A stretch of DNA of 64,000 nt. Source: Lepidurus packardi. Its lineage: Eukaryota; Arthropoda; Branchiopoda; Notostraca; Triopsidae. A model generated the notes under the pieces. That model worked only from the letters and a program-made list of their open reading frames with translations. It was not told the DNA's origin and did not search any database. The stretch spans positions 12,892,790-12,956,789 of the forward strand of contig JAKZAN010000002.1 in NCBI GenBank assembly GCA_023053545.1, in the 5' to 3' direction. Positions 2,255 to 26,353 of this stretch are shown here, one piece after another (positions within the stretch are counted from its first letter, which is position 1; each line of letters starts with the position of its first letter). A program made the translations under genes and the position numbers.

Positions 2255-2508
2255 TTACTTCGGACGACAACACCAAGGGTATTGGCAGGGACAAGCGATC
2301 TCTGAGTCATGGTCCCCTTGGTTGAAGAAGCTGTCCACTCCTTGGAATTCATTGTTGACGTCCCTGGCTTCTCTGTTCAACAAGTCCATTGCGGAAGCAG
2401 CGGCTACCAATACGAAAACCAAGAAGAGTAGGACCTATACAATAACGTATTAAACGTTGTATTAAGCGTTGCTTAAGTTTAAAAGCAAATAGAAACGCTT
2501 ACCTTCAT
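2255..2508 (-). CDS. Family I cysteine-rich short secreted peptide
   Basis: Exons are 2508-2503 (Met-Lys) and 2434-2255, giving 61 aa. Residues 3-17 are the signal core VLLFLVFVLVAAASA. An N-R-E-A-R-D ... F-Q-G-V-D linker follows, then a C-terminal Cys cluster C50-x-C52-x4-C57-C58 just before the stop. The linker is acidic and could be a propeptide (inference). The exon 2 protein is identical to that at 7907-8086 and nearly so to 25970-26152, so this form is kept while intergenic DNA has drifted. The promoter has a palindromic kB-like site. Function is unknown; an antimicrobial or other host-defence role is a guess from the architecture. Confidence 0.75.
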
Positions 2509-2609
2509 TGTTGAGGAAGTGGGGATATTTCGGCCTTTCGCTGAGTGCTGTAGAGGAAGCAGGAAGAAGCTGTTGTGTGTTGTGATGGTTTGGGACCGAG
2601 ATGCGAGGG

Positions 2610-2654
2610 TATTTATACGGGCTGGTTGGATGGGTTGATTTGGGGAAATTCCCC
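2610..2654 (-). promoter_or_regulatory. TATA box and palindromic kB-like site of 2255-2508
   Basis: On the minus strand, TATAAATA is at 2617-2610 and the perfect palindrome GGGGAATTTCCCC at 2654-2642, 24 bp further upstream. The sequence between them (AAATCAACCC and the CCCGTATAAAT context) is also conserved in the other family I genes. Confidence 0.65.
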
Positions 2655-3103
2655 GCACGTCTAACAAGTAACTGCTTACAATACCAGGCTAAAATAATCT
2701 TGGGTTTCCCTAGAATAATTGTTTGTTCATGGAACTGTTTCTAACGTACGTTTCTTAGATTTGCATTGGGCTTTTTGTGTTATGTACATGAAGGCTATCT
2801 AAAATTTCGTTGTTGCCTGGGGTACGCTTCGGTTCATGGGGTACGCTTCCTTCCAATCGGAATGGCGCGTCAACGCAATAATGAAATACGAAGAGTTAGC
2901 CTGTACGGAAGGATTCCACTATACCCGGCAACTCGGATCACAATTGCCGTCTTAGTCTTTAATTTGAACTCGGTGCTTTTTGTTACTGAATGGGATAGTA
3001 CTTTTGTTTTAGCCTATAAAGATATTGTACATTTACAAGAAAATGGTAATAATAACTATAAAACAGAATTCGAAGGCAATTCATTGTTAAATGTTTAAGG
3101 TGT

Positions 3104-4370
3104 TTACAAATAAAACATGATACACGGCATTAGAATTAGAAAGTCACAGTACTACGTTTCAGTATATTTTCTGTAAATCTAAAATTTTTTGGTTTGGCAA
3201 AATTCAGTTTTTATAAGCTGAGTAAAAGTTGAAGGCCTAGATTTCATATTAATTAATTCATGACATGAACGGATTCCAAAAAGAAAAAAAGGATACAAGT
3301 TCCAAGAAAGCAATTGTTCCTGTAGCATTTTGACGTAAGGATCTGGAACATACGTTTCGGGGCAAAAACTGGATCTTACAACCGAACTGTCCCTCTTGGG
3401 GTTTTTCCGATCATACGTTCTTCTCATCATAATAAAACAATATTCGTCCTAACTGCATTAGGTGGGAAAAATAGTGTCCGATTATAAACCGGTTTGGTCT
3501 AATCCAGTATCCTGTTTTGGGCGCTTTGAAGTGGGTGAGGAGGAAGGATTTAGAAATATTTGTCAATTCGAAAATCTGTTGATTTATTGACGAGATTTTC
3601 AAGTATTTCATTTTGGAGTCAAAGACAATTTTGCCGTACATAGATTGTTATAAACCAATCCCGGGCCTTGTGTAAGAATGTAGAAAAGGAAAAGTTTCTG
3701 AAAAGTGCAAGTTGTCACCACAGTCTTGCTGTAGTAAAACCCAATCAAGTCGTCAAACATTCGGAACAAGTTTTCTCGAAAAGTTTGGCAAAAACTTGTT
3801 ACGTCAGATTTGAAAGCAATCTAAATCAAAAGTTTTATTTTTTTAGCAGCTAGTGCACAAGGAAAGGACGTATTTTTTAGGCAGCGTATTTCACATCGTT
3901 GCAAACTTCATTTAGTAGTGTCCTGTTAGTAATGTATTATTCATGTAAAATGTATTATTCATGTATTATTCATGTAGTAAAACTATTCATGGTCCTGCAC
4001 TAGCTGTTAGTATGCTCGAGCTTACGGCCAAAGAAGTATTTCACGGAAATGTGCTGGTTCTAAGAAAAAGTTGTTCAGGAATTCCCCATGCAATCCAAAT
4101 CTTAAGATATGAAAAAAATCTAAGTAGATTTTTTAGTTAATAAGATGGTAAACTGCGGAATAGGAAAATTGAGATGAAATTTCACTTGTAAAACATAAAA
4201 GCAATATGTGAAACTTGTGAATGATACAATTGTATTGCGATTTTTCTATACGACACAATGTGTAATGGAACAGATCAAAGGAAGCGAGAGTGCAAAGCAC
4301 TTTACAGCTAGAATTGCCATAAGATAATTAGGAAATGATGTGATTGTAAGAAAACACGAAACTTTTCAAA
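3104..4370. other. Inverted-repeat spacer, no supported gene
   Basis: 3180-3420 resembles 26880-27070, so it belongs to an older duplicated block. Open frames here (for example 3179-3641 minus) lack homology or splice context. 3950-3985 has a short direct repeat (gtattattcatgta). Confidence 0.45.
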
Positions 4371-4657
4371 TTATTCGGCTATAGTGTGGCATGGTCGCAT
4401 ATTCTTACGGTCGCATATTGGCACAGGCCCAGTTGTATATTTGCAACAAAAATATGGATTGATGCCGCAGCTACAAGGTTTGCCTTGTAACGCCCCTGGG
4501 AATTCATCCTTGAGGTCTTTGGATTGTCCCAAGCTCATTGTGGAAGCAGCGGCTACCAGTACGAAAACCAGGAAGAGTAGGACCTATACCATAACGTACT
4601 AAACATTGTATTAAGTGTTGCTTAAGTTTGTTAGCAAATAGAAACGCTTACCTTCAT
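4371..4657 (-). CDS. Family I six-cysteine secreted peptide
   Basis: Exons are 4657-4652 (Met-Lys) and 4583-4371, giving 72 aa. The signal core is VLLFLVFVLVAAAST. The mature part has six Cys at residues 39, 41, 48, 49, 59 and 67, spaced C-x1-C-x6-C-C-x9-C-x7-C, with the family core C-G-I-N-P-Y-F-C-C. The central adjacent C-C and six-Cys layout look like compact disulfide-rich peptides such as cystine knots or defensin-like folds. That is a pattern comparison, not a homology claim. The promoter has a TATA box and a kB-like site. The relative at 5104-5393 shares all six Cys positions but is broken. Confidence 0.75.
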
Positions 4658-4755
4658 TGTTGAGGAAATAGGAATATTTCTACCTTTTGCTGACTGCTGT
4701 AGAGGAAGCAGGAAGAAACTGTGGTTTGTGATGGTTAGGGAACGAGAGGCGAGGG

Positions 4756-4800
4756 TATTTATACGGGCTGGTTGGATGGGTTGATTTGGGAAAATTCCCC
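4756..4800 (-). promoter_or_regulatory. TATA box and kB-like site of 4371-4657
   Basis: On the minus strand, TATAAATA is at 4763-4756 and GGGGAATTTTCCC at 4800-4788. Order and spacing match the other family I promoters. Confidence 0.6.
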
Positions 4801-5103
4801 GCGTTAGAGCAGTTTCTACTGGTTAAAGTAAAATAAAGAAAAAACTTGACCTCCACCTATACCGCGAACTAAGGTATACGGGAAACTTTTTGAACTTTTA
4901 ACTACATGATGGTCAAAAATCTCATAAATTTGTGGTTGCCAAGATGTAATTTTATAAACTTCATTGTAAATAATTGCAGAATCGGAAAATTGGAATGGAA
5001 TTTCACTGCTAAAACATAATTGCAATATGTGAAACTTGTGAATGATACAATAAGATAATTAGGAAATGATGTGATGGTAAAAAAATACACGAAACTTTTC
5101 AAA

Positions 5104-5393
5104 TTAATCGGCTCTATTGTTGCACGGTCGCTTAGTCATAAAGTCGCATAATTTGAAAGGCCCAGGTTTATAGCTGCAACAATAATAGGGATTGGTGCCG
5201 CAATTACAAGTTTTTTCAAGGTTCTCCCCTTGGAATTCATCATTGAGGTCTCTGGCTTGTCTATTCAAGTTCATTGCGGAAGCAGCGGCTCACAGTACGA
5301 AAACCAAGAAGAGTAGGACCTATACCATAACGTGTTAAACGTTGTATTAAGCGTTGCTTAAGTTTAAAAGCAAATAGAAACCCTTACCTTCAT
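5104..5393 (-). pseudogene. Family I six-cysteine peptide with a stop in the signal peptide
   Basis: Exon 1 is 5393-5388 and exon 2 is 5319-5104. The mature region is open and well kept: six Cys in the same C-x1-C-x6-C-C-x9-C-x7-C spacing as 4371-4657 with core C-G-T-N-P-Y-Y-C-C. Within the signal core, CTG-GTA of the relatives reads CTG-TGA, putting a stop at the tenth codon of exon 2. Splice sites, TATA and kB-like site are intact, so inactivation looks recent, or this is a sequencing error or allele. Downstream in-frame ATGs would lack a signal peptide. Confidence 0.7.
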
Positions 5394-5492
5394 TGTTGAG
5401 GAAATAGAAATTTTCTACCTTTTGCTGACTGCTGTAAAGGAAGCAGGAAGAAGCTGTTGTGTTGTGATGGTTTGGGAACCGAGATGTGACTG

Positions 5493-5537
5493 TATTTATA
5501 CGGGCTAGTTGGATGGATTGATTTGGGAAAATTCCCC
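5493..5537 (-). promoter_or_regulatory. TATA box and kB-like site of 5104-5393
   Basis: On the minus strand, TATAAATA is at 5500-5493 and GGGGAATTTTCCC at 5537-5525. The promoter is kept although the coding exon has a stop. Confidence 0.6.
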
Positions 5538-5826
5538 GCTCTTGTTGCAGTTTCTACTGTTTAAAGTAAATTAAAGGAAAACTTGACTTTCACCTATACC
5601 GCCAACTAAGGTATAAGGGAAAGTTGTTGAACAGTTTGTTGTAGTCTACTAAAGCGACTGCATTAAAAAGGATTCTGCACGAACTGCACGTAAAAAAAAG
5701 AAATAACGGATCGGGTTTTCATAGAGGAATTGCAAGCGGTTATTATTAATAAATAGTGGATTTAAAATTCTTACAGTTCAAGTATTTCCAGTCAGGGAGA
5801 GGTAAGGCATTGTTCAAGTTGTTCTT

Positions 5827-6617
5827 TTAATATTGGGGGGACTTGTAGGAGGGTTGGTAGGCGGGCTTGGCGTAGGTACTGGGAGCATACGCTTGCTTGG
5901 ATTCGCCGGAGTGTTGAACTTCAACAACATAGCCACTGTAGCCATCAACGTAGTACAGTGGAACCTCTCATAACGAGTAATTCGCATAACGAGCAAAAAA
6001 ACATGTGAAAAAATTGCTCCCTTAACGAGCTACATTTCGCATAACGAGTGACGCAGAAAGGGAAGTCACGTAACGTATGAGTCACTTGTGAGCCGGGACT
6101 CATCAGTTTCACATAACAAGCAAGATTCTGGAACGAATTATGCTCGTTAAGAGAGGTTCCACTGTAGTTGACGACCTAAACAGATGACAGATGGATTTAG
6201 TTACTAAATAAAATCAAAGAGGTCGAAGTTGGGGTAAGATAAGTGTCTTAACTGGCGACGACCATCAGGAAGTACGACGTTGTAAGATCCCTTGGTGTTG
6301 TCACCGTTGCGTGTCTTTTGGTGGCCCATGTCTACGTAGTAGTCATCCTTGACTTGCCAGTCGAAGTGGTAGATGGCGGGAGCGTAGGATTCTTTGTAGC
6401 CTTGGCTGGAATACGAGGGCGTGTTGTATTGCTTGTTGTTGTTGTACTGGACGTTGACTGCGGAGGCTGCGGCGACCAAGGTACCTTTTACAAGGGTACC
6501 AAGCGAACCAAGCGACCAAGGTACCAAGAGAACGTTTTCAGGACGCAAAAGCGAAAGTGTTAGTTTACATTTTGTTCCGGTTTCTTTTAATTTAGTCGAT
6601 GGATGGCGTACCTTCAT
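5827..6617 (-). pseudogene. RR-2 cuticle protein pseudogene, interrupted by a MITE
   Basis: Pieces of a cuticle protein of the CPR-A type are visible. The Met-Lys exon is at 6617-6612. The chitin-binding exon (about 6520-6253) contains F-D-W-Q-V-K-D-D and L-P-D-G-R-R-Q. The C-terminal exon holds V-D-G-Y-S-G-Y-V (about 5955-5932) and ends Q-Y-stop at 5829-5827. Faults: the exon 2 acceptor AG reads AC near 6535; the signal region is swollen by repeats of a GGTACCTTGG unit; the donor after R-R-Q reads TT instead of GT; and the last exon is cut by the 209-bp MITE at 5956. Non-functional as a cuticle gene. A long open frame through 6204-6881 is read-through of these parts. Confidence 0.8.
5956..6164. 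mobile_element. MITE, Tc1/mariner or pogo-like, TA target site
   Basis: A 209-bp element with terminal inverted repeats starting CAGTGGAACCTCTC. The two 22-bp ends agree at 21 positions and are flanked by TA at 5954-5955 and 6165-6166. The empty site is preserved in CPR-A2 (cgtagTAgttgac near 21429-21441), so the insertion point in the cuticle exon is certain. Short internal repeats of ataacgag follow each end. There is no coding capacity. Assignment to pogo/Tigger-like elements rests on the TIR style and TA duplication. Confidence 0.85.
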
Positions 6618-6984
6618 GTTTGATAGAGAGCAGTTTGCTCTGCTTTCAGTGCTTACTGGATGAAGCTTAGAAGCTGTTGTGTGATTACTAGGGATCACAC
6701 GTTTAGTATTTATAGTCTGAGTGCCGGATTGATTTGCTGTAGAGTTCAGTAAAGAGAGAAGGGTTTTGGGCGCTGTGTTACTTGTAATTGAGGTACTACT
6801 TTTCAACCGGTAGTTTGTCAACTTTGACACTACACCCATTTCTGTATGAAGTTGTGTCTTTCGCCTACCTGACAGCACCAATGCCCCTGATTACATCACA
6901 TTCCAGTTTAGGAGCTGTTATAAAATCGTTGTACTAAAAAGCTAGTTTTTCTTCATAAATGCTACTGATTGTCTGACAACATCA

Positions 6985-7137
6985 AGGGATCTAACAATGT
7001 TGTACTTCCTGACGGTCGTCGTCAGGTAAAACACTTATCTTACCCCAACTTCGACCTCTTTGATTGTATTTAGTAACTAACTCCATCTGGCATCTGTTTA
7101 GGTCCTCTTGCAATTCCTCCCAATATTAAAAGACAAC
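6985..7137 (+). pseudogene. Cuticle protein exon fragment
   Basis: About 6988-7026 encodes a piece like D-N-I-K-G-S-N-N-V-V-L-P-D-G-R-R-Q followed by a GT donor at 7027. The continuation matches, in inverse orientation, the end of the pseudogene at 6170-6310. A C-terminal scrap with Q-Y-stop follows at 7110-7126. No start or signal exon is present. Confidence 0.6.
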
Positions 7138-7686
7138 TTGAACAATGTTTTGCATCTCTCTGACTGTAAATCCCTGTGCTATATGGTTTCGGAAATACAA
7201 GATTTATTTGATACAAGATTTTATAAAGTTTTATTTCTAAATACCTTAAACATTTAAACAACGAATTGCCTGAATTCTGTTTTATAGTTATTATTACCAT
7301 TTTATGGTAAATGTAAACATCTTTATAGGCTAAAAAAGGTACTATCCCATTCAGTAACAAAAAGCACCGAGTTCAAATTAAAGACTAAGACGGCAATTGT
7401 AATCCGAGTTGCCGAGTGTAGTGGAATCCTCCCGTACAGGCTAACTCTTCGTTTTTTCATTATTGCGTTGACGCGCCATTCCGTTAGGAAGAAAGCGTAC
7501 CCCGTGAACCGAAGCGTACCCCAGGCAACAACGAAATTTTAGATAGCCTTCATGTACATAACACAAAAAGCCCAATGAAAATCTAAGAAACGTACGTTAG
7601 AAACAGTTCCAAGAACAAACAATTATTCTAGGGAAACCCAAGATTATTTTAGCCTGGTATTGTAAGCAGTTACTTGTTAGACGTGC

Positions 7687-7731
7687 GGGGAATTTCCCCA
7701 AATCAACCCATCCAACCAGCCCGTATAAATA
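7687..7731 (+). promoter_or_regulatory. Palindromic kB-like site and TATA box of 7833-8086
   Basis: GGGGAATTTCCCC at 7687-7699 is a perfect palindrome; TATAAATA follows at 7724-7731. Start of transcription is expected about 25-30 bp later, near the conserved CTAACCATCA. Confidence 0.65.
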
Positions 7732-7832
7732 CCCTCGCATCTCGGTCCCTAACCATCATAACACACAATAGCTTCTTCCTGCTTCCTCTACAGCACTCAG
7801 CAAAAGGCCGAAATATCCCTACTTCCTCAACA

Positions 7833-8086
7833 ATGAAGGTAAGCGTTTCTATTTGCTTTTAAACTTAAGCAACGCTTAATACAACGTTTAATACGTTATG
7901 ATATAGGTCCTACTCTTCTTGGTTTTCGTATTGGTAGCCGCTGCTTCCGCAATGGACTTGTTGAACAGAGAAGCCAGGGACGTCAACAATGAATTCCAAG
8001 GAGTGGACAGCTTCTTCAACCAAGGGGACCATGACTCAGAGATCGCTTGTCCCTGCCAATACCCTTGGTGTTGTCGTCCGAAGTAA
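7833..8086 (+). CDS. Family I cysteine-rich short secreted peptide
   Basis: Exons are 7833-7838 (Met-Lys) and 7907-8086, giving 61 aa. The start is the only ATG after the TATA box and before the GTAAGC donor. The protein is identical to that of the minus-strand copy at 2255-2508, ending C-P-C-x4-C-C-R-P-K. Identity across two arms whose non-coding parts differ points to purifying selection or recent arm-to-arm conversion. Predicted secreted; function unknown. Confidence 0.75.
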
Positions 8087-9183
8087 AGTGAACTTTCAAC
8101 CAATAATGAACCGCGGATCCAACGATAAGGGATTCCCAAGTAAGAAGCTATAGACGAATCTATTAGACGAAGAACTCATTATAATTTCCAAACTTTCCTG
8201 TTTCTTAGGTTTTCCTAACTCTAGTACGTCTCTTCTGTCTGCAAAGTATGCTTCGTAATTCTGCTTCCTTTGATCTGTTCCACTAACACATTGAATAGTA
8301 TCAAAAAACCGCAATACGCTATTCACAAGCTCTAAGTATTGCTACTATTTTGTAAAGTGAAATTTCATCCCAATTTTCCCATTCCGCAACTATTTACAAT
8401 AAAACTTCTGTCATTCTATCTTGGCAACGACGAATTTACTAGATTTTCTTAAGATTTCGAAAAAAATAAATAAAAGTGTAGAAGATTGAAATTTTAATCT
8501 TCTATACACTTTATAGGATTTACTGCAAATGTTTGTTCTATTAGATATGGGTTGAATTCAGAAATGTACTACCTGTGCCCTCAGTTGGATTACCCCAATA
8601 CATCCAGTACTTTCATTCAATTTCATATAGTACCTCATTAGCTCATACTACTTGACTTCCTTGGCATCCAAGGTCTTCCACTCTTCCAGATCAACTTATG
8701 TTGAAAACTTGAACAATGTTTTGCATCTCTGACTGTAAATTCCTGTGCTATATGGATTCGGAAATACAAGATTTATTTATCATTATCTACTGCACCGTTC
8801 CTCCAATTTTACTTATTTAATTAATCTAAAAAATGAGGTATTAAACACAAAGCATTGCAATTCAACTATAAAACTTACCAAACCTCCGAAGCTTCAAAAG
8901 TAAAGGAGAATTAAAGAAAAACATTGGATTTAATTACTATTCGGTGAAAAAATGTACCAAACTTTCGAAGCTTCGAAAGTACGAATGAATGAAAGAAAAT
9001 ATTAGAAAAATGTCAGAAATAGCAATAGAAATAGTCTAACAATAAAGTATAATTGTAATATTGTCGAGTATTAGATCGATGTGGAACAATTAACCAGAAC
9101 AACTAACAATGGGCTGGTACAATTAACCAGAAGGAAAAATCAAGATTTTCCACTTTACCAGACTAAAAAAGCTAAATACGAGC
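8087..9183. other. Stretch without a supported gene (right inverted arm)
   Basis: Mirror of 1163-2254. It contains the shared 3' block near 8715-8800 and AT-rich DNA; no coding signal. Confidence 0.5.
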
Positions 9184-9225
9184 GGGGATTTTTGACCATT
9201 CGAACCCAACCATCCTGTATAAAAG
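9184..9225 (+). promoter_or_regulatory. kB-like site and TATA box upstream of 9317-9589
   Basis: GGGGATTTTTGACC at 9184-9197 and TATAAAAG at 9218-9225, the family II promoter arrangement. Confidence 0.55.
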
Positions 9226-9316
9226 TTCCAACACATCCAACTAAGAATCACACAACATTTTCCAACTTCCATCCAAGTAAACCTCAAACCACAGAAGCTC
9301 ACCTATTCCTTGAAAA

Positions 9317-9589
9317 ATGAAGCTAAAGAATTACTTTCAAGCTTGAAGCGAAAGCTTGGAATCTAATTTTGTTTTATAGGTCCTCCTCTTGGTGCTATTG
9401 TTCGTAGCCGTAACTTCCGCGTGTAATTCGGATAGTGATCGTAATCGTAACTGTGGGGGTCGTGACAATCCTCCGTGCCCTCCGCGGGATAATGATAATT
9501 ATCCACGACGTGAACCCCCGTTCTATAAACGAAGCTTAGAATCTTTGGAACCCCAAGAAAGCAACAATGCCTACAGAAATGGAGCTTAA
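9317..9589 (+). pseudogene. Family II peptide gene with lost splice donor
   Basis: Exon 1 ATGAAG is at 9317-9322 and exon 2 at 9380-9589; the acceptor is good and the frame is open to N-A-Y-R-N-G-A-stop. The donor reads CT at 9323-9324 where every relative has GT, so normal splicing of the Met-Lys exon should fail. Unspliced reading stops after nine codons. The exon 2 product would have the signal core, C-N-S-D, P-P-C-P-P, a K-R pair and the S-L-E-P-Q-E-S-N tail. It is probably a pseudogene, unless another donor or an exon 2 start is used. Confidence 0.65.
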
Positions 9590-9925: not shown

Positions 9926-10475
9926 CGAAGCTTCAAAAGTAAAAACGAATGAAATGGTTGATCTAGTTAACATTAAAAATTGCTACAGAATTATTATAAC
10001 TACGATTTGTAATTGTAATCTTCTCGACTGTTTGATCAATCAGAAAAAATAAATAGAATTAGGACACTGAAAATCAGGCCGATACTTTCACAAATAGCGA
10101 CGAATTTCCCTCTTCCAGATCAACTTATGTTACAAATAACTACAAATGATCCGTGATTTTTGCACATTCTAACCCAACGAACATGATTTTTGCAGAACAA
10201 CCTAAACTTCCAAAGTTTCCAAAGTAAAAACTAAAGAAAATATTAGCTTAATGGATATTAGAAAATTAAAAATTGGACAACTGTCTAAGCTTCATCACGA
10301 ATAAAAGTGAATTAAAGAAAAATATTGGATTTAATTAACAGTAAAAATTGCTATAGAATTATTAAAATGTGTAGTTGGAAACTTGCCAGGTACTAGATCG
10401 ATCTGAAACAAAGAAACAGAGCTATACTAAAAAAAAAGAGAAAACTAACCAAACGTGCTAACCTAAATTCGAGCG

Positions 10476-10516
10476 GGGATTTCTGACCATTTAAACGCAA
10501 CGATCCTGTATAAAAG
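10476..10516 (+). promoter_or_regulatory. kB-like site and TATA box of 10608-10892
   Basis: GGGGATTTCTGACC at 10476-10489 and TATAAAAG at 10509-10516. GGGGATTTCT fits GGGGATTYYT exactly. Confidence 0.6.
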
Positions 10517-10607: not shown

Positions 10608-10892
10608 ATGAAGGTAAAGAATTACTTTCAAGTTTGAAACGAATGCTAGGAATCTAATTTTGTTTTGTAGGTCTTCATCTTGGTGCTATTGTTCGTAGCC
10701 GTAGCTTCCGCATGTAATTCGGATAGTGACCGTAAGTGTGGGGGTCGTGACAATCCTCCGTGCCCTCCGCGGGATAATAATGATAGGATTGCTGACTATT
10801 ATGCACGACGTGATCACCCTCTCCGAGCACGAAGCGTAGAATCTTTGGAACCCCAAGAAAGCAATAACAATGCCTACAGAAATGGAGCTTAA
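10608..10892 (+). CDS. Family II short secreted peptide, intact
   Basis: Exons are 10608-10613 (Met-Lys) and 10671-10892, giving 75 aa. Signal core VFILVLLFVAVASA is followed by C-N-S-D-S-D, a C-G-G and a P-P-C-P-P stretch, a central Y-A-R-R-D-H segment with dibasic residues, and the family tail S-L-E-P-Q-E-S-N-N-N-A-Y. The R-R and R-A-R sites could be processed (inference). The best-preserved member of its type in the window, with TATA, kB-like site, donor and acceptor all in order. A leftover cuticle protein exon lies just downstream (10958-11077). Function unknown. Confidence 0.7.
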
Positions 10893-11717: not shown

Positions 11718-11861
11718 GGGAAATTTTGACCATCCGAACGCAATAACCAACCTATATAAAAAAGCGCCAGCTCAAACAAGTAAGAACCACACAACAGCTT
11801 CCAACTCCCATCAAAGTAAACTTGTAAACAAAGAAGACGACATATTCCTTTAACAATGAAG
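11718..11861 (+). pseudogene. Family II promoter and Met-Lys exon without body
   Basis: GGGAAATTTTGACC (11718-11731), a TATATAAA box (11753-11760) and ATGAAG with GT donor (11856-11863) are present. From about 11890 the sequence becomes the upstream region of family I genes, like 7530-7620. This is a deletion or recombination joint that removed exon 2. Confidence 0.6.
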
Positions 11862-12044: not shown

Positions 12045-12089
12045 GGGGAAACTTCCCAAATCAACCCTACCCACCAACCCGTATAAATA
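12045..12089 (+). promoter_or_regulatory. kB-like site and TATA box of 12187-12440
   Basis: GGGGAAACTTCCC at 12045-12057 and TATAAATA at 12082-12089, spaced as in the other family I promoters. The palindrome has drifted at one position but both G and C blocks remain. Confidence 0.55.
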
Positions 12090-12186: not shown

Positions 12187-12440
12187 ATGAAGGTAAGCGT
12201 TTGTTTCAAAGTTTAAGCCAGTCCTTAATACAAGGTTTAATAACGATGGTACAGGTCGTACTCTTCTTGGTTGTCGTGCTGGTAGTCGCTGCTTCTGCCT
12301 GGCCCACGTTGCACAGACCAGCCAGGGACGTCAACAATGATTTCCAAGGAGTGGACGCCTTCTTTGACAAAGGCGAGCCTAAATTCGAGACCTTTGGAAG
12401 GATTCGCGACATAATTGAATGGTTTTATAACTTGGGTTAA
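12187..12440 (+). CDS. Family I secreted peptide without cysteines
   Basis: Exons are 12187-12192 (Met-Lys) and 12255-12440, giving 63 aa. Signal core VVLFLVVVLVVAASA and the linker R-D-V-N-N-D-F-Q-G-V-D place it in family I. The C-terminal half has no Cys and instead reads G-R-I-R-D-I-I-E-W-F-Y-N-L-G, a likely amphipathic helix. So the promoter, signal and linker are kept while the mature end has been replaced or rewritten, as expected of a diversifying effector family (inference). Function unknown. Confidence 0.7.
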
Positions 12441-13348: not shown

Positions 13349-13392
13349 GGGAATTTTCCCAAATCAACCCATCCAACCAGCCCGTATAAATA
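13349..13392 (+). promoter_or_regulatory. kB-like site and TATA box of 13484-13764
   Basis: GGGAATTTTCCC at 13349-13360 and TATAAATA at 13385-13392, in the standard family I arrangement. Confidence 0.6.
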
Positions 13393-13483: not shown

Positions 13484-13764
13484 ATGAAGGTAAGCGTTTC
13501 TATTTGTTATCAAACTTAAGCAACACTTAATACAATGTTTAATACGTTATGGTATAGGTCCTACTCTTCCTGGTTTTCGTACTGGTAGCCGCTGCTTCCG
13601 CAATGAACTTGTTGAATAGACACGCCAGAGACGGCAACTTTAGATGCCATGGAGTGTACCAATGCGGCGTCAATCCATATTATTGCTGCGACTATATGTG
13701 TGTGGAAGGTGAGGCAACACCCGACTACACAACTATGCGACTCTGTGACGATTATGCGGCATAA
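13484..13764 (+). CDS. Family I six-cysteine secreted peptide, knottin-like spacing
   Basis: Exons are 13484-13489 (Met-Lys) and 13558-13764, giving 70 aa. Signal core VLLFLVFVLVAAASA, linker N-R-H-A-R-D, then six Cys at residues 32, 38, 45, 46, 50 and 65: C-x5-C-x6-C-C-x3-C-x14-C, with core C-G-V-N-P-Y-Y-C-C. That order (C...C...CC...C...C) resembles inhibitor-cystine-knot peptides, though the last loop is long. It shares the N-P-Y core with 4371-4657 but spaces the other Cys differently. Could be antimicrobial, inhibitory or structural; no assignment is possible from sequence alone. Confidence 0.75.
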
Positions 13765-16116
13765 TATGGAAAGTATCGTGACTTTAGGTTTTCCTAACTA
13801 TCTTACGGCAATTATAGCTGTCGGCAATTATGGCAGTTACAACTGTAAAGTGCTTTGTACTCCCGCTTCTTTTGACCTGTTCCGTTACACATTGTGTCGT
13901 ATAGAAAAACCGCAATACAATTGTATCATTCCCAAGTTTCCCACATTCCTTTTTTGTCTTACAAGTTGAAATTCATCCCCAATTCCCGTTCCGCAGTTTA
14001 CCATCTTAGCAACGAAAATTATATTTGGATTCCTTCAACATCTTCAGATCTCTAACAAAAGGACTAGAAGTCTAAAATTCTAATTTTTAGTACACTTTCT
14101 AGAATCCACTGCCAATGTTTGTTCTATAAATGGGTTGAATTCAGAAATTTACTAATTGCATCTTATAGTGGAGAACTCCAAGTCCAATAATATGGTTTAA
14201 TTTCTACTAATTCCGTTTTAGTGCAAATATTACTTGACTTCCTTGTTCTTACTTTCCTTTCTAAAGTAGAAAAATTTTTAAAAAATGGAATCTACCACAA
14301 CATTACTGTTCTGAAAGAGCTCCCAAACAGGAATAGGTGTCCAAATGATGACAGACTCTTGTCAAATGTAACGAATGTAATACCAAGCCAAGTCTGCCTA
14401 TACCAACCCTCTAACAAGTCTTTCCAATATTCAAAGCAAAGCTTGAACAATTTCTACATCTCTCTGATGGCATATAGTGCTCCGTGAATTTTTTTAATAC
14501 ACTATTTATGATCATTACTTACTCCACCCTTCCTATAAGTTTTCTTACTTAATTACTATACTTATCCTAATTATTTTTAATACGACTTCTATCCTTATTG
14601 TAACTATTCCAATTTATTATAAATAAAATCCTTATTTTCCTTTCGAACTCTGAAGTATTTACCTCACTAATGAAAGTCAGCGTGCTTGCTTCCAAACTTA
14701 ACGGTAGCGTATTTACCACCACCACAATAAAAGCTACAAGCCATAATAGTACCACCACGCTAGCAATGGGGACCCAATAGTAGCAATGCAAAACTCGTGG
14801 CTCCTCCTTCCACCGTGTCACTTAGACCTGAGGCAATCCCGTCCTGTGGAATCCAAAGTCTTTAGGAAGTCAACCATGCGTTTCAACCTCCATTTACCGG
14901 GAGAGTAGCAGTACTCCGCGTTGATTGACCTGAGCCCACTCGTACTGGCATTGTTGTGCTCTTGCTGGGGATCTGACGAGTCGTTCCTTAAGGGTCAAAT
15001 CACATCTGGTACTGAAACAAAATGCGAACTCAAATTATGGCTTCTTAGCGTTTTGAAAAGGTTATCTTGATGGGTACAATTACAATCCAATCACGACTGA
15101 ATTCATATCCATTATAGACCTTCAACTTTCAGGCAGCTGATAAAACAATCTATATATAAAAGTTCCCTAAATTTACAGAAAATATAAATTAAATCTAGTG
15201 TTGCGGCTTTGTAATGGGAACGCCGTGTCTCATGTTTTATTTGTAAATTTTCTAGTTATTATTAAAATTTGACTGTCAGTTTAACATTTCTTTATTCAGC
15301 CAAAAAAGGTACGATCCATTTCAATCACAAAAACCCCTGAATTTCAATTAAAGGCCACGCCGGCAATTGTGATACGAGTTGCCAAGTGCCTCGCCACATG
15401 GTATAAACTTCGTTTTCCATTACTGTGTCACAGCGCTATTCCCTAATCACCAACAGCATTCCGTTTGGAAGGAACAGGTTACAAGGAATACAACTTGTTT
15501 GCCCTGGGAAGAACTTCAAGGGGAACGAAGAACGAAATATTCAATTGCATCCGAAGTACATAACAAAAAAGCAAAATGAAAACCTGAGAAACAATCTTAA
15601 GGAAGAGTGAAAATAATAAAGCAATATTCTAACCTGTTTCTTGTTATATGTGCGGGGAATACCCGCGTATCTTCTGTTCCTAACCATCAGAATAGAATAT
15701 GTATATCTCATCTTCTCATCACGACCAGGATATTCTCAACCCATTTATTGGCTTTTACGACTAAGTACAACCAGTTTTTTAAGCTCACCAACCCGTTCTT
15801 TTAAAAAGTTTTGAAGGGTAAAGGTGTAAGGGTGTACTGACTCCAATTTTTCGTTAAAAACCAAATTGTGTTATCAATTTATTGCGGAGCATAGTAATGC
15901 AATTCATTAAATAACTAACTTTTTGTAGTAAATTATAATAAGGATACCAGCCGTATTTAAAAACAACATAACAAAAGATCATTACAATAGTTAAATAAGT
16001 AAAATTAGAGGAAGGGTGCAGCAGATAATGACAAATTAATAAGTGTATTTAAAAATCCATATAGCGCAGGTATTTGCAGTCATTAGAGAGGTAAAAACAT
16101 TGTTCAAGTTTTTCTT
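13765..16116. other. Decayed intergenic stretch
   Basis: 14385-14440 carries a scrap of a cuticle C-terminal exon. 15160-15640 is a degraded copy of the segment seen at 7245-7620, followed by a ruined family I promoter (GGGGAATACCC near 15654) with no exon. No intact gene seen. Confidence 0.45.
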
Positions 16117-17219: not shown

Positions 17220-18960
17220 CAGAAATTTTCAATGATTGGTAAGAAAGAACAAACTGTAAATCAATTACCTTAGTCTGACTGAAATAAATTTGGATTGCGA
17301 ATAAAAACGCTTCGCACCGTGTTCGTTTCCAGGAGCACTTGATACAGTTTTTCCTTAATTGTACCAGCTTTTTACCCTATTTCATTGGCCTGCATTTTAC
17401 AAGTTTCAATCTTAAATTTACTTGCAAGTTTATTCATTTCTTTCATTTATTATTTGATAATCTTACAATTTGGGTTAAACTTGAAGTCCTTCTGGGTATA
17501 CTATACACGTATAGTACATATTAGAAGGTTGGAAGTACCACCCGACAAAAGATTACGATTGTTTTCAAATTTAATTTCGAATCTTTCTATAGTAAAGTAT
17601 TGTCTACAGTCTTGCTGCCATCGACATCATAGTTTTTAAAGAATGGCCCTACCGAAATGAGACATATTAATTTAGATTAATTTCTAGATAAGTTTGAACT
17701 AGTTTATACTTTAGTGTTTGTCGCTGGGAAGGGTAGTAATGGACGGTTGAGGACTGTCCGGGCGAAAGGTTCCAGAAGATCCCTTTCCGTAGGCATTGTT
17801 ATTGCTTTCTTGGGGTTCTAAAGCGTCTAAAAAAGCATTGTTGGCGGCCCCGTCAAATTGGTAGTGTACAACGTCGGATTCGAAGATTCTGGCAGGCTTG
17901 GTAGGCTTGCTCACGACATTTCCTGCGGAAGCGGCGGCTACCAACACTAGAACCAAGATGAGCACCTATATACATATATAAAAAAGTTAGATTACCAAGT
18001 TTTGCTTCAAGTTTGAAAGTACTTCGTTACCTTCATTGTTCAAGGAATAGGTGGGCTTCTGTGTTTTCAAGTTTACTTGGATGGAAGTTGGAAGCTGTTG
18101 TGTGATCTTTAGTTGGATGTGGTGGGGCTTTTATACAGGACGGTTGGGTTCAGTTGGTACAAAAACGCCGGCTCGTATTTAGTTTTTGTTTATGTTTTTT
18201 TTTTGTGTTTTCTAGCTCGGTCTGGTAGAGTGCTGGAAGGTCTGGGTTTTCTCCAGCTTCTTCGAATCAGGAACGGGCCTGGGTTTTCTCCAGGGTTCTT
18301 CGAATCAGGAATGGGATTCTCGATCCACATATTTATCTTTGAGTTCAGCCAATTTTTTAAGCTAATACTGTATCAACCAGTTCTGGAAAAGTTTTGAAGG
18401 GGGGATGAGATCCAATACAGCTTAAAACTTCAGTAACAATCTAGCACAGAGCCTAGAAATGCAACTAGTTAAGTAAAATGAGAGAAAAGTGAAGTTTACT
18501 GTCAATTACTAGTAATGTAATGGATTAAGTAAATACAATTAGAAGATGGTCGCAGTTAGGTAATGATAAATAAATTTTGTATTTAGAATCCAGATAGCAC
18601 AGATATTTGCAGTCAGGGAGAGGTAATTATTGTTCAAGTTTTTCTTTGAGTATTCGGAGAATTTGTAAGTGGGTTGGTAGGCGGGCTTGGCGTACCTGGT
18701 GATAGTTAGCTCTGCAGAAGTGCAAGCATTAATTCAAATTTTCTAGAAAAGAAAGAGATCTCGGAAATATGGCAAATAAATAGTGTATTTAATTTCAACG
18801 ACGCACAAGTCACATTCAGTCCGTAAGCATTCCTTTTAAGACACGCGGTATTTAATATACGGCGGGTTTGTAAGCGGGTTGGTAGGCGGGTTTGTAGGCG
18901 GGCTTGGCATAGGTAGCGGGAGCGTACGCCTTGTAATCACCGGAGTACTGGACATCAGCA
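17220..18960. repeat. Tandem-duplicated block, copy 1
   Basis: Matches 22555-24150 in the same orientation. 18060-18960 versus 23240-24140 is nearly identical, while 17220-17720 versus 22555-22990 has diverged. Each copy holds a family II gene and cuticle exon remnants. Confidence 0.8.
17711..18036 (-). CDS. Family II secreted peptide, long form
   Basis: Exons are 18036-18031 (Met-Lys) and 17965-17711, giving 86 aa. Signal core VLILVLVLVAAASA; no Cys; mature part has K-P-T-K-P-A-R, F-D-G-A-A-N-N, then D-A-L-E-P-Q-E-S-N-N-N-A-Y and an extended tail with S-P-Q-P-S-I-T-T. The 793 and 10608 genes keep the nucleotide equivalent of this tail behind a TAA, so the long form is probably ancestral. 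TATAAAAG lies at 18135-18128; the kB-like site has drifted to GGCGTTTTTGTACC. Function unknown. Confidence 0.7.
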
Positions 18961-19509: not shown

Positions 19510-19599
19510 GATTGTTGTGGGAGTTGGGTTGCTTGCTTGCTTGTTGAAGCTAGGAAGTTGTGTGATTTTCTGGAGTTGGACTTTCGCTATTTATAGTAA

Positions 19600-21234: not shown

Positions 21235-21822
21235 TTAATATTGAGCAGCGGCAACATAGGCGGGTTGGTAAGCTGGTTTGTAAGCGGGCTGTGCGTACAC
21301 AGCAGGGGCGACGTACGCAGCGGGTTTATAGGCGGGTTGGTAGGCGGGCTTGGCATAGGTAGCGGGAGCGTACGCCTTGTAGTCACCGGAGTACTGGACA
21401 TCAGCAACATAGCCGCTGTAGCCATCGACGTAGTAGTTGACAGTCTACGAAAAGAGCCCGATTATTAATAAAAATAGTTCAAATCAAGCCGAAAAAATGT
21501 TACCTGGCGACGACCGTCGGGGAGATCGACGAAGTAAGATCCCTTGGTGTTGTCACCGTTGCGGGCTTCTTGCTGGCCCATGTTTACGTAGCTGTAGTCA
21601 TCCTTGACGGCCCAGTCGTAGTTGTAGTATGCTGGGGCATAGGCCTCTTTGTAGGAAGGACCGTAGGCCGGGGCGGCATAGGTTTGCTTGTTGTACACAT
21701 CAACGGCGGAGGCTGCTGCGACAAAAGCGAGGACCAAGAAGACCTTTTTAGGATGAAATACAACATTTAGCCTTTACCTTCTTAGTCGTAGTTACTTTCT
21801 TTAAAGTCACGCTTACCTTCAT
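21235..21822 (-). CDS. RR-2 cuticle protein (CPR-A2)
   Basis: Exons are 21822-21817 (Met-Lys), 21743-21504 and 21444-21235, giving 151 aa. Signal core VFLVLAFVAAASA. The RR-2 domain has Y-N-Y-D-W-A-V-K-D-D, M-G-Q-Q-E-A-R-N-G-D-N-T-K-G-S-Y and L-P-D-G-R-R-Q. The C-terminal exon is longer than in A1 and A3, adding A-A-Y-V-A-P-A-V-Y-A-Q and ending A-A-A-Q-Y. TATA-like TATAAAAA lies at 21921-21914. This gene supplies the empty-site reference for the MITE at 5956. Confidence 0.93.
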
Positions 21823-22005
21823 GTTTGGGTTTGAAAGGATTTTCTTTGCTTGAAAGTTGCTTGCTGGGTGAAGCTAGAAGCTCAAGTGTGATAGTTTCAG
21901 ACTGGACCTTCCATTTTTATAGGAAGGGGAAAGGGTCTCGGTGACATTCGCTCCATAGCACTTAAGGTTTCACAACATAACCACACCCGGTTTTCTAATT
22001 TTTAT

Positions 22006-22188
22006 TTGGAGCGCTTAAAGGATATCGCGAATATCACGTTTTTTCTCCCCGTCCTGAGCAAGTGTGACTTCATACAACGTTCCGTTGTCATCTGGAACAA
22101 TCTACCAGCGGAAGTGATCCCCCATGTACCCTCAGTTCAATTCCTTCAAGGGGAAGTACCATCGGTTTTTGACGGCTTGAACCAGTAG
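22006..22188 (+). mobile_element. Non-LTR retrotransposon fragment (C-terminal tail)
   Basis: The open frame contains R-S-V-V-I-W-N-N-L-P-A-E-V-I followed by P-S-V-Q-F. This resembles the common end of CR1/jockey-type reverse transcriptases (R-x-x-x-x-W-N-x-L-P-x-E-V ... P-S-x-x-x-F). Only about 60 codons remain; no reverse transcriptase core is in reach. Confidence 0.5.
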
Positions 22189-22985
22189 CACTGGACATGA
22201 TGATGATTACCGGGACTATCATCCACAGCGAAGGTGCCGTGAATTTAGTTAAAAAAAAAAAAATTCCAAGAGTTGAGAATAAGATTCTGATTTGAGATGA
22301 TTTCGTTTCATCTCTTCGCATTGTTTCAGATTTTCTAAATCAATCTGTATCATTCATATGATTCGTATTATATCAGTCTCATAACCGAGCTTCCGGTTTC
22401 GTTAAGTCGAATTTCTCGAGTTTCTCTTTAATAAGTCTTAGAATCATTTCGCGGTTTAATGAATCCACATCCTTCCTTGTGTTGATAGCATATGCTTATG
22501 CGTATGCTTGTGCTTAAGCATGTAATAATTGTAAGAAAGTTCAAGACTCTAAATTAATTACAATAATCTGACTAACGTGAATTTATATAACGAATAAAAG
22601 TCTTCGCACCGTTCATTTCTGTGAGCACTTGATACAGTTTTTTATCTTCGTAAACGGCCTTTTAATTAATTTTTTTTTAATTTAAATTTCAATAGTAAAT
22701 TTCTGCCTATTTTTACTTTATTATTGGAAAATATCACAATTTTTACAATTTTGGTTTAAACCAAACAGTCCATCTTGGTATACATATGTAGATAATACAA
22801 GTTTCCAAGTTTCACCCAACATACTAATACGAATATGTTGTAAACTTAAACTCGATTGCTTTTACAGAGAAAAATCGCCTAGTCTTATTGCCATGGACGA
22901 CATTGGTTGCAAAGGGTGCCTAAAGAAATGATACAATTTTTTAGTTCAAATTTCGTTCTGAAAACGTTTCAACCGTTTATACCTT

Positions 22986-23223
22986 CTATCTGTTGCCGCG
23001 GACATTAGTAGTCGCCGGTTGAGGACTGTAGGTTCCTTCCAAGCCGTCCAAGATACTTCTAAGAAAGATCTTAGAAAATTCGAAGATCGGATTGCCGGGT
23101 GGGAAGATTGGTTTGCCCTCGGCGTTTACTGCGGAAGCAACGGCTACGATCAAAAGAACCAAGAGGAGGACCTATTAAACAAAATTAGATTTCAACCTTT
23201 TGAAAGTACTTCGTTACCTTCAT
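22986..23223 (-). CDS. Family II secreted peptide with helix-like C-terminus
   Basis: Exons are 23223-23218 (Met-Lys) and 23171-22986, giving 63 aa. Signal core VLLLVLLIVAVASA; mature part G-K-P-I-F-P-P-G-N-P then F-S-K-I-F-L-R-S-I-L-D-G-L-E-G, a likely amphipathic helix, and S-P-Q-P ending R-G-N-R. The L-D-G-L-E and S-P-Q-P pieces align with 17711-18036, whose E-P-Q-E-S-N part is missing here. It is the positional partner of that gene in the duplicated block. TATAAAAG is at 23322-23315; the kB-like site is decayed. Confidence 0.7.
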
Positions 23224-24029
23224 TGTTCAAGGAATAGGTGGGCTTCTGTGTTTTCAAGTTTACTTGGATGGAAGTTGGAAGCTGTTGTGTGATCCTTAGT
23301 TGCGTGTGGTGGAGCTTTTATACAGGACGGTTGGGTTCAGTTGGTACAAAAACGCCGGCTCGTATTTAGTTTTTGTTTATGTTTTTTCTAGCTCGGTCTG
23401 GTAGAGTGCTGGAAGGCCTGGGTTTTCTCCAGCTTCTTCGAATCAGGAACGGGACTGGGTTTTCTCCAGGGTTCTTCGAATCAGGAATGGGATTCTCGAT
23501 CCACGTATTCCCTTATCTTTGAGTTCAGCCAATTTTTTAAGCTAATACTGTATCAACCAGTTCTGGAAAAGTTTTGAAGGGGGGATGAGATCCAATACAG
23601 CTTCAAACTTCAGTAACAATCTAGCACAGAGCCTAGAAATGCAACTGGTTAAGTAAAATGGGAGAAAAGTGAAGTTTACTGTCAATTACTAGTAATGTAA
23701 TGGATTAAGTAAATACAATTAGAAGATGGTCGCAGTTAGGTAATGATAAATAAATTTTGTATTTAGAATCCACATAGCACAGATATTTGCAGTCAGGGAG
23801 AGGTAATTATTGTTCAAGTTTTTCTTTGAGTATTCGGAGAATTTGTAAGTGGGTTGGTAGGCGGGCTTGGCGTACCTGGTGATAGTTAGCTATGCAGAAG
23901 TGCCAGCATTAATTCAAATTTTCTAGAAAAGAAAGAGATCTCGGAAATATGGCAAATAAATAGTGTATTTAGTTTCAACGACGCACAAGTCACATTCAGT
24001 CCGTAAGCATTCCTTTTAAGACACGCGGT

Positions 24030-24150
24030 ATTTAATATACGGCGGGTTTGTAAGCGGGTTGGTAGGCGGGTTTGTAGGCGGGTTGGTAAGCGGGCTTGGC
24101 ATAGGTAGCGGGAGCGTACGCCTTGTAGTCACCAGAGTACTGGACATCTA
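24030..24150 (-). pseudogene. Truncated cuticle C-terminal exon
   Basis: Near-copy of the CPR-A1 last exon (tail V-Y-stop near 24035 through the D-V-Q-Y-S-G-D-Y region), cut off inside D-V-Q at the palindrome beginning 24141. The chitin-binding exon is absent. Confidence 0.75.
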
Positions 24151-24164
24151 TTTGTAGATGTCCA
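24141..24164. repeat. Fold-back palindrome at a duplication joint
   Basis: TGGACATCTA, a TTTG loop, then TAGATGTCCA: perfect 10-bp arms. The left arm is native cuticle exon sequence and the right arm is its inverted copy, immediately followed by the duplicated 22914-type sequence. Confidence 0.8.
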
Positions 24165-24228
24165 GAAGAAATGATACAATTTTTTAGTTCAAATTTCATT
24201 CTGAAAACGTTTCAACCGTTTATACCTT

Positions 24229-24466
24229 CTATCTGTTGCCGCGGACATTAGTAGTCGCCGGTTGAGGACTGTAGGTTCCTTCCAAGCCGTCCAAGATACT
24301 TCTAAGAAAGATCTTAGAAAATTCGAAAATCGGATTGCCGGGTGGGATGATTGGTTTGCCCTCGGCGTTTACTGTGGAAGCAACGGCTACGATCAAAAGA
24401 ACCAAGAGGAGGACCTATAAAACAAAATTAGATTTCAAGATTTTGAAAGTACTTCGTTACCTTCAT
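24229..24466 (-). CDS. Family II secreted peptide, near-copy of 22986-23223
   Basis: Exons are 24466-24461 (Met-Lys) and 24414-24229, giving 63 aa. It differs from the neighbour by two residues that I can see: A to T at the end of the signal core and F to I in G-K-P-I-I-P-P. The frame and both splice sites are intact. Unlike the neighbour it has a kB-like GGGGAATTTTG at 24599-24589, upstream of TATAAAAG at 24565-24558, so the promoters differ although the coding exons are recent duplicates. Confidence 0.7.
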
Positions 24467-24794
24467 TGTTCAAGGAATAGGTGGGCTTCTGTGTTTTCAA
24501 GTTTACTTGGATGGAAGCTGGAAGCTGTTGTGTGATCCTTAGTTGGATGAGCTGGCGCTTTTATACAGGATGGTTGGGTTAGAATGTGCAAAATTCCCCG
24601 CTCGCATTCATGTTAGCTGTTTCTTTGTTTCGGATCTATCTAATATTCGGCAAGTTTCCAACTACACTTTCGAATTTTAATATTTCTATAGGAATTTTCA
24701 ATGTTAATTAAATCTAATATTTTTCTTTAGTTCACTTTTACTCGTGATGAAGCTTAGACAGTTGTGCAATTTTTTATTTTCTAATATCCATTGA

Positions 24795-24845
24795 AGCTTA
24801 TTTGAGCTGGCGCTTTTATACAGGATGGTCAAAACTCCCGGCTCA
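24795..24845 (-). promoter_or_regulatory. Orphan family II promoter fragment
   Basis: TATAAAAG (about 24818-24811) with CGGGAGTTTTGACC upstream matches family II promoters but has no Met-Lys exon on its downstream side. Confidence 0.4.
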
Positions 24846-25499
24846 TGTAGTTCTTTGTATTATAGCTTGTTCCGGTAGACCTTGATTTTTGGAAGACCTT
24901 GATTTTTACTAAGCACTGGTATTATTATTCACGGTCAGATTTCTGTTTAATTATTTCAGATCGATCTAATACTCGAGAAGGTTACATAATTACACTTTAT
25001 AGTTATAATTATTCCATTGCAATTTTGAATGTTATTTAAATCTAATCTAAATTTTGTCTTTAACTGGCTTTTACTCGTGAAGCTTCGGAAGTTATCTATT
25101 TCTTTTATTTTCTAATATCGGTTAAAGCTAACATTTTTCATTAATTCATTGTTAACTTTTTCAAGCTTCGGAAGTTTTTTACGTTTTTACAGTTTATAGA
25201 TATTGAACATTACAATTTGTTGTAACGGCAAGTTAGAAGCTTAATATGTATGAGTATGACACAAACCGTCACAAATTGAAAGAAAATCTAAGAAAAATGG
25301 GAGATTTGAGAGATTGGAAGATTTAAGCAAAAAAAAACTTTCTTTAGAGATCCATAGTAACTGATATGATAGCATCTACCTTGGCGAACTTGAACTTGAC
25401 CTCCGCCTGGATTTTTCGCAAATGTTCCTCACATCATTAAATAAATTTTCAATCCACGTGTTGCCTTATATGATGAACCATAACCAGTTTCTTAAGCGT

Positions 25500-25600
25500 C
25501 AAACTACTACGTCGATGGTTCCAGCGACTATGTTGCTGAGTTTCAACGCTCCGGTGAATACATACAAGCCATCATTCACTGCGTCCTTCCGCTAATATTA
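25500..25600 (+). pseudogene. Cuticle exon relic
   Basis: The frame reads N-Y-Y-V-D-G-S-S-D-Y-V-A-E-F-Q-R-S-G-E-Y, a mutated version of the CPR-A last exon, then decays. No other exon is adjacent. Confidence 0.6.
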
Positions 25601-25969
25601 CCAAGAACTACATGATGGTAAAAAATCTAGTAAATTTATTTTTGCCAAGATGTAATTACATACATTTCCTTGTAAATAGTTGCGGAATAGGAAAATTGGG
25701 ATGAAATTTCACGTTGTACAATAGTAGCCATATTTAAAGCTAGTGGATTGTACAATTGTATTGCGGTTTTTGTATACCACGCAAGTTGTGAGTGAAACAG
25801 GTCAAAGGAAGCAGGACTACCAACTATAGTTTGTAGACAGAAGAGACATATTACAGTCAAGAAAACCTAAGAAACACAAAACTTTAGAAATTATAGTTAG
25901 TTCTTAGTCTAATAGATGGCGCTGTAGCTTCTTACTTGGGAATCCCTTATCGTTGGATCCGCGGGTTGA

Positions 25970-26226
25970 TTATAGCTTCTGACGACAACACCAAGGGTAT
26001 TGACAGGGACAAGCGACCTCCGAGTTATAGTCTCCTTGGTTGAAGAAGCCGTCCACTCCTTGGAATTCATTGTTGACGTCCCTAGCTTCTCTGTTCAACA
26101 AGTCCATTGCGGAAGCAGCGGCTACCAATACGAAAACCAAGAAGAGTAGGACCTATACCATAACGTACTAAACGTTGTATTAAGCGTTGCTTAAGTTTAA
26201 AAGAAAATACAAACGCTTACCTTCAT
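25970..26226 (-). CDS. Family I cysteine-rich short secreted peptide
   Basis: Exons are 26226-26221 (Met-Lys) and 26152-25970, giving 62 aa. Close to 2255-2508: same signal core and linker, and C-P-C-x4-C-C at the end. It has D-G for D-S, D-Y-N-S-E-V for D-H-D-S-E-I, and a different last few residues (R-Q-K-L). The Cys cluster is unchanged in three genomic copies. Confidence 0.75.
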
Positions 26227-26309
26227 TGTTGAGGAAGTGGGAATATTTCGGCTGTAAAGGAAGCAGGAAGAAGTTGTTGTGTTGTGATGGTTAAGGACCG
26301 AGATGTGAC

Positions 26310-26353
26310 TATTTATACGGGCTGGTTGGATGGGTTGATTTGGGGAAATTCCC
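26310..26353 (-). promoter_or_regulatory. TATA box and kB-like site of 25970-26226
   Basis: On the minus strand, TATAAATA is at 26317-26310 and GGGAATTTCCCC at 26353-26342. Confidence 0.6.

Follow-up and report, generated by a model that had tools for sequence, protein, structure and literature searches.

Does any promoter feature set genes for short secreted peptides apart from the cuticle genes among which they lie, and could it indicate what the peptides are for? The question is raised by a 64,000-nucleotide stretch of the Lepidurus packardi genome (108.6 Mb, 344 contigs), positions 12892790-12956789 of contig JAKZAN010000002.1 (C2), hereafter the window. Short genes built of a six-base Met-Lys exon, an intron and a second exon fill its left 28 kb and fall into three groups: family I (seven copies in the window, TATA form TATAAATA), family II with its relatives (TATA form TATAAAAG, once TATATAAA; eight promoters, of which seven lie in the window and one immediately to its left), and cuticle genes. 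In the peptide genes the intron after the Met-Lys exon is 46-68 bases long and the second exon opens with a hydrophobic leader, as judged from the translations. Peptide and cuticle genes are intermingled and share a core promoter, with a common TATA box and an initiator-like (Inr-like) element ATCACACAACAGCTTC, as well as the Met-Lys exon. Our analysis supports a kB site, the sequence form bound by NF-kB, as the distinguishing feature: it marks the peptide genes and is nearly restricted to them, being absent from the neighbouring cuticle genes. The mature peptides, some of them Cys-rich, are hypervariable. Judging from the DNA, we give a probability of roughly 0.58 to the reading that the cluster encodes lineage-specific, NF-kB-inducible secreted effectors with a mode like that of the Drosophila Bomanins, and the peptide genes are good candidates for infection-induced defence peptides.

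The sites come in two forms. Those of family I are palindromes of the GGGGAATTTCCCC type beginning 36-37 bp 5′ of TATAAATA; the first G lies 37 bp upstream in five of the seven copies and 36 bp upstream in the copies with ATGs at 13484 (e) and 26226 (c), which start TGGGA. The 13-mer is separated from the TATA box by 24 bp. In family II the sites read GGGGATTYYT, with the first G 34 bp 5′ of TATAAAAG and 24 bp between the 10-mer and the TATA box. An earlier note on this DNA had listed kB-type sites at seven family I and three family II promoters, and we found each of the ten in place; its spacing to the TATA box holds for family I, while the distance of about 20 bp given for family II is corrected to 24 bp. 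The note had also called GGGGATTYYT a Relish-type motif, which agrees with the Relish consensus GGGGATTYYY in PMC9496462. Two further papers present GGGAATTTCC as a canonical kappa site (PMC8709846) and an NF-kB consensus site (PMC4466673). These sequences support a reading of the cluster sites as textbook kB sites, with the qualification that GGGGAATTTT, the site of gene k (see below), matches neither form fully.

The pattern GGGRAWWYYCC had 18 matches against a mean of 0.99 in 200 dinucleotide shuffles, and a site 15-35 bp before TATAAA was matched 14 times, at 10 promoters, against 0.01 in the shuffles; overlapping frames, and palindromes on both strands, are counted in these numbers. Over the window extended leftwards by 20 kb, a site lies within 60 bp of the TATA box in 12 of 15 peptide-type Met-Lys promoters and in none of 14 cuticle-type ones, in agreement with the earlier note, and none of the 29 carries one at 60-250 bp. 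Across the whole genome, TATAAAN{80,110}ATGAAGGTAA occurs 49 times, against 9 for the reversed control. The motif GGGAWWY, picked after the sites of the window had been seen, lies 17-47 bases before the TATA box in 13 of these 49 Met-Lys promoters and in none for the reversed control. The 13 divide into 12 of 14 peptide-type promoters and 1 of 35 others (Fisher 1e-8); the stricter family I-type and Relish-type patterns give 8 of 14 against 1 of 35 (p 5e-5), and in both cases the counts cover paralogous copies, which are not independent events. Gene h is missing from the 49 because its splice donor has changed. The lone site-bearing promoter among the 35 belongs to a cuticle gene at C2:12671849, with the first G 50 bp before the TATA box. 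This gene (C2:12671740-12671899) lies outside the cluster, and its kB-like sequence is GGGGATATTCC.

From this arrangement we infer Rel binding, inducibility and effector function. Infection or barrier damage would activate Dorsal and/or Relish, and a Rel dimer would bind beside the TATA-bound machinery, at one NF-kB site positioned 34-37 bp upstream of the TATA box on a core promoter and Met-Lys exon shared with cuticle genes. The short peptides would thereby be switched on and, once secreted, may act on microbes or regulate the response. Rel homology exons are present at C2:11.287 Mb, with loop RFRYECEGRSAGSI, and at C2:1.659 Mb, with loop FRFRYKSEMTGTHGSI, of the Dorsal and the Relish type, respectively. 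Near the Relish-type gene, C2:1651000-1660999 contains mitochondrial-looking ND4 and ND5 frames (table 5), by eye a nuclear mitochondrial insert.

Family I gene a (plus strand, 7833-8086) consists of the Met-Lys exon at 7833-7838 and exon 2 at 7907-8086 and encodes 61 amino acids in total, with a CxCxxxxCC pattern; its site GGGGAATTTCCCC is at 7687-7699 and its TATA box TATAAATA at 7724-7731. The protein of gene b (minus strand, 2255-2508) is identical to that of gene a, and the site is again GGGGAATTTCCCC (2642-2654; TATA 2610-2617). Gene c (minus, 25970-26226) has GGGAATTTCCCC at 26342-26353, also read as TGGGAATTTCCCC, and TATA at 26310-26317. Gene d (plus, 12187-12440), with a mature part devoid of Cys, carries the variant GGGGAAACTTCCC at 12045-12057 (TATA 12082-12089). 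Gene e (plus, 13484-13764), with six Cys, has GGGAATTTTCCC at 13349-13360, also read as TGGGAATTTTCCC, and TATA at 13385-13392. The site GGGGAATTTTCCC is found both in gene f (minus, 4371-4657; six Cys; site 4788-4800, TATA 4756-4763) and in copy g (minus, 5104-5393; site 5525-5537, TATA 5493-5500). Copy g contains the nonsense codon TGA within its signal peptide (5290-5292), with the remaining frame open, and is either a young pseudogene or an assembly error. An extra family I copy at C2:1520791, 11 Mb from the cluster, comprises the promoter and part of the mature region, apparently without the Met-Lys and signal exons.

In family II, the Relish-type site GGGGATTTTT occurs in gene h (plus, 9317-9589; site 9184-9193, TATA TATAAAAG 9218-9225) and gene j (minus, 793-1029; site 1153-1162, TATA TATAAAAG 1121-1128), and GGGGATTTCT in gene i (plus, 10608-10892; site 10475-10484, TATA TATAAAAG 10509-10516). 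The splice donor of gene h reads CT instead of GT at 9323-9324; the gene is otherwise intact and is possibly broken by this change. Absent from the earlier list is the site GGGGAATTTT of the family II-type gene k (minus, 24229-24466; site 24590-24599, TATA TATAAAAG 24558-24565), and the same site precedes a further gene of family II type, which lies 602 bp to the left of the window. In the family II-type genes l (minus, 22986-23223; ATG 23223) and m (minus, 17711-18036; ATG 18036) the site is broken and the promoters are without it; the mature part of l is 99 % DNA-identical to that of k. A weak site, GGGAAATTTT (plus, 11718-11727), stands before TATATAAA; the Met-Lys exon that follows, with its ATG at 11856, is an orphan.

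The kinship of the copies determines how many independent sites there are. Without gene d, family I copies are 0.86-1.00 identical from the site to the signal peptide. Their mature parts reach 0.93-1.00 among a, b and c, 0.77 between f and g, and only 0.53-0.67, with gaps, between lineages, where the untranslated regions (UTRs) and introns still show 0.70-0.95; the upstream DNA from -110 to -40 shows 0.34-0.56 between lineages. For the pairs a-e, a-f and e-f, the proportion of synonymous differences in the mature part (pS, 0.33-0.48) equals that of nonsynonymous ones (pN) and is far over the 0.07-0.11 of intron and UTR; therefore the 5′ cassette was either homogenised by conversion or joined to older, diverged mature parts. 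On these comparisons, duplication or gene conversion has spread the cassette that runs from the site to the signal peptide, and the mature parts have diverged meanwhile.

General positive selection on the mature parts was considered and dropped, as the dN/dS of only one of 12 pairs, f-g, is clearly above 1 (1.93). This pair alone has a pN (0.27) clearly above both pS (0.16) and non-coding divergence (0.10), and g carries the nonsense codon. The ratio indicates constraint for a-c (0.25), k-l (0.30), e-g (0.42) and i-m (0.49) and is near 1 (0.80-1.18) for a-e, a-f, a-d, e-f, h-i and h-j. The twins a and b differ at none of 180 exon-2 bases and at about 15 of 367 non-coding bases (from rounded identities; Fisher 0.004), which suggests that their coding sequence is maintained, unless conversion is responsible.

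Promoter identity changes near the site. For 10 of the 12 family I pairs taken across lineages, the most probable change point falls 36 to 41 bp upstream of the TATA box (c-e at -60, d-g at -62), and for the seven pairs of site-bearing family II copies it falls at -39 to -52; these pairs are not independent. With a site-less partner it lies at -35 (h-m) or -15 (k-l), and for l-m, both site-less, at -65. As the sites start at -37/-36 and -34, the conserved promoter block stops at or slightly above the site, and in the four cuticle promoters of the window that were compared the divergence reaches the TATA box. Homology between the spacers of families I and II was examined in six comparisons, with shuffle fractions of 0.012, 0.02, 0.059, 0.111, 0.437 and 0.691; the site may have had one origin or two. 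Genes k and l are 0.99 identical in mature DNA and 0.93 in the UTRs, whereas above -15 their promoters differ and the site is present in k alone; apparently a promoter swap between k (24229-24599) and l (22986-23322) took place through recombination. Two genes with almost the same peptide, one with and one without the site, amount to a natural experiment.

Outside the cluster, the family I-type pattern matches 32 times in the genome, against 17 for the reversed control; eight matches, at seven places, are family I, and four are promoters of an unrelated secreted family (C3:12224346, 12229357 and 12245776; C4:11302054). Above background, the pattern picks one peptide family and one unrelated secreted family in 108.6 Mb. 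The product of the latter is papain-like, has a leader and is encoded by several exons; one copy, with its exons joined, matches Pfam Peptidase_C1 at E 8e-7. At the catalytic Cys position, set by eye, the six copies found of the exon concerned have F, Y or S. Two of the sites read GGGGAATCTCC, one GGGGAATCCCC and one GGGGAATTTCCCC, and all four lie 26 bp ahead of TATAAA. In the 50 kb read around the loci, four of the six papain-like first exons found have an intact site and TATA box; the other two, at C3:12235499 (TATA box missing) and C4:11298479 (frame broken), have an altered site, and further copies may exist elsewhere. Within the set of three C3 copies, the spacer leading to the TATA box varies little; between C3 and C4 it differs, with the site kept. 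We count this family as the best independent support for the arrangement, because the site stands at what looks like a genuine TATA promoter, that of a secreted protein.

Several observations weigh against an NF-kB-driven effector cluster. The seven family I sites descend largely as one cassette; they represent about two lineages, with gene d on one side and all other copies on the other, and do not count as seven separate events. Compared with gene a, gene d has changes at 3 of 13 site positions and 4 of 24 spacer positions, so that the site is no better conserved than the spacer. Only five of eight family II-type promoters have the full site, and gene l makes nearly the peptide of k without one. 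The extra copy at C2:1.52 Mb retains its site despite having no signal exon. Genome-wide, the Relish-type 10-mer before TATAAA occurs 16 times (three of them family II) against 14 for the reversed pattern, which is no enrichment. The earlier note had proposed a scan of Met-Lys promoters with a Rel-family matrix; with strict motifs in place of the matrix, enrichment is seen among these promoters (12/14 against 1/35) and over shuffles (14 against 0.01). Once both families are subtracted, 20 of the 32 family I-type matches remain against 17 reversed, a background level; among 30 loci whose first reading frames after the TATA box were viewed by eye (the C44 and C120 matches excluded), the only secreted-looking product beyond the two families was the cuticle gene at C2:12671849. 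The stretch just upstream of the papain-like site is conserved as well; amid some 20 background matches, this family counts as a single duplicated event and could be a coincidence. A linked GATA site is typical of fly NF-kB-driven antimicrobial peptide (AMP) genes; here it was found within 190 bp in 4 of 11 promoters, near the site in one alone (three of seven family I copies at -183, one of four family II at -76; chance expectation 0.3 per promoter). Finally, none of six peptides searched in Pfam (a, e, f, i, l and m) gave a match over the cut-off, to a known AMP or otherwise.

Some of these points favour the alternative that survives best, although we hold it to be unlikely: the site would have been present in a founding copy by chance and been duplicated or homogenised as a passenger of the promoter-leader cassette, with no NF-kB role. 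Leaving d aside, family I copies resemble one another almost as closely in UTR, intron and signal exon as they do in the promoter core, the high pS of a-e, a-f and e-f indicates 5′ homogenisation, the copy lacking a signal exon retains the site, and the pattern is not enriched outside the two families. Against a passenger stands the fact that in most pairs identity stops at the site edge, with different DNA upstream. Moreover, gene d, whose intron and UTR are only 0.72 and 0.70 identical to those of gene a, still has a kB-compatible variant, and none of the site changes seen in family I abolishes the kB match, an outcome to which a simple model gives about 0.05 and which is no more than suggestive. 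A passenger is also disfavoured by the papain-like family, which is unrelated and has the same arrangement with a differing spacer.

A non-immune function is less probable still. Here Dorsal/Relish or another kB-binding protein (Su(H) for the copy that reads GTGGGAA, or one of the Schnurri/HIVEP type) would drive the expression of small cuticle-associated peptides in the epidermis or in step with moulting. The core promoter, the Inr-like ATCACACAACAGCTTC, the Met-Lys exon and the cluster itself are common to peptide and cuticle genes, and PMC3573115 describes a Relish-cathepsin L pathway in the ecdysone-driven fat-body dissociation of a moth. The site is, however, found in none of the 14 nearby cuticle-type promoters, though one cuticle gene elsewhere has it (C2:12671849), and the mature parts are hypervariable and partly Cys-rich. 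Chitin_bind_4, present in one cuticle control protein, was found in none of the same six peptides. The idea that runs of G and C gathered at promoters by chance has practically no probability left, being refuted by the shuffle (14 matches at 10 promoters against 0.01) and reversed-pattern (13 against 0) controls, with nothing found in its favour.

Returning to the proposed NF-kB-inducible effectors, we searched for relatives of the peptides and for upstream immune components. Proteins a (family I) and i (family II) had no relatives among 5.8 billion proteins in a search that relies on shared exact words, so that short diverged relatives may be missed. As a positive control, a cuticle protein of the window retrieved 106 proteins at E <= 0.001, the best with 77 % identity. 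A minority of these were named, nearly all from crustaceans (Procambarus, Artemia, Notodromas, Hyalella, Daphnia and others), the exceptions being one adelgid insect and one labelled Klebsiella; the two named Daphnia matches have 57 % and 46 % identity. Pieces of e and f gave nothing convincing against solved structures (best E 0.46 and 0.043). In literature that was partially covered, no account of this cluster came up, nor of a kB site beside the TATA box as a marker of peptide genes in crustaceans. The genome-wide search with PF01510 (Amidase_2) resulted in a single match, intronless and on contig C344, which is likely bacterial, though exon-split peptidoglycan recognition proteins (PGRPs) could be missed. 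Because this match is intronless and the only one, an arthropod PGRP was not detected; Daphnia pulex is likewise described as lacking PGRPs in PMC2685406 and PMC4833078.

Fly AMP promoters are kB-driven, and the genes described here resemble them and those of shrimp in having an upstream kB site together with a TATA box. They differ in that the site is single, in a fixed place adjoining the TATA box, and mostly without a linked GATA. For shrimp, an upstream kB site and a TATA box are reported in penaeidin and crustin promoters (PMC6683665). The fly immune MEF2-TATA is given as CTATAWAAGM in PMC3807682, and its flanks are unmatched by GTATAAATA in family I and GTATAAAAG in family II; five of the six family II promoters h-m fit its 3′ flank, yet G instead of C precedes TATA. 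The 55C cluster of Drosophila Bomanins consists of short secreted, lineage-restricted, clustered peptides that are Toll-induced in the fly (PMC4411088). Our genes are alike as clustered duplicates of short secreted lineage-restricted peptides and differ in sitting among cuticle genes and sharing their core promoter, and we do not claim membership. The model PF08194 (DIM), which we presume to be linked with the Bomanins, served as their stand-in and matched one of the six peptides at E 0.23, below the cut-off. This match and one to PF10917 (nematode fungus-induced peptides; E 0.16) are weak, concern the leader region and fall under the curated cut-offs; those peptides and Drosophila DIM are short like ours, which are not members of either family. 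With RR-type (CPR) cuticle genes the peptide genes share the TATA box, the Inr-like element, the Met-Lys architecture and the intermingled cluster; they differ by the kB site, missing from the 14 nearby cuticle promoters, and by Chitin_bind_4, found in the one cuticle protein tested.

As a tentative extension, which may well prove wrong, L. packardi, with no arthropod-type PGRP exon detected, would have acquired its own NF-kB effector arsenal through a kB site placed directly before the core promoter of cuticle genes. Conversion would keep the promoter-leader cassette uniform while the mature peptides change continually, and the same TATA-proximal arrangement would have arisen separately in a catalytically dead papain-like secreted family. 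A promoter signature by which candidate effectors can be told from cuticle genes that share their build would offer a homology-free route to finding such peptides.

Two further observations concern the rest of the window, both made by eye. Decayed promoter remnants of family II and family I are present at 305 (minus) and about 15654-15690 (plus), respectively. The part from 29900 to 62240 contains repeated AYxxP-type cuticle genes on the minus strand and P450-like exons on the plus strand and resembles a recently amplified array.

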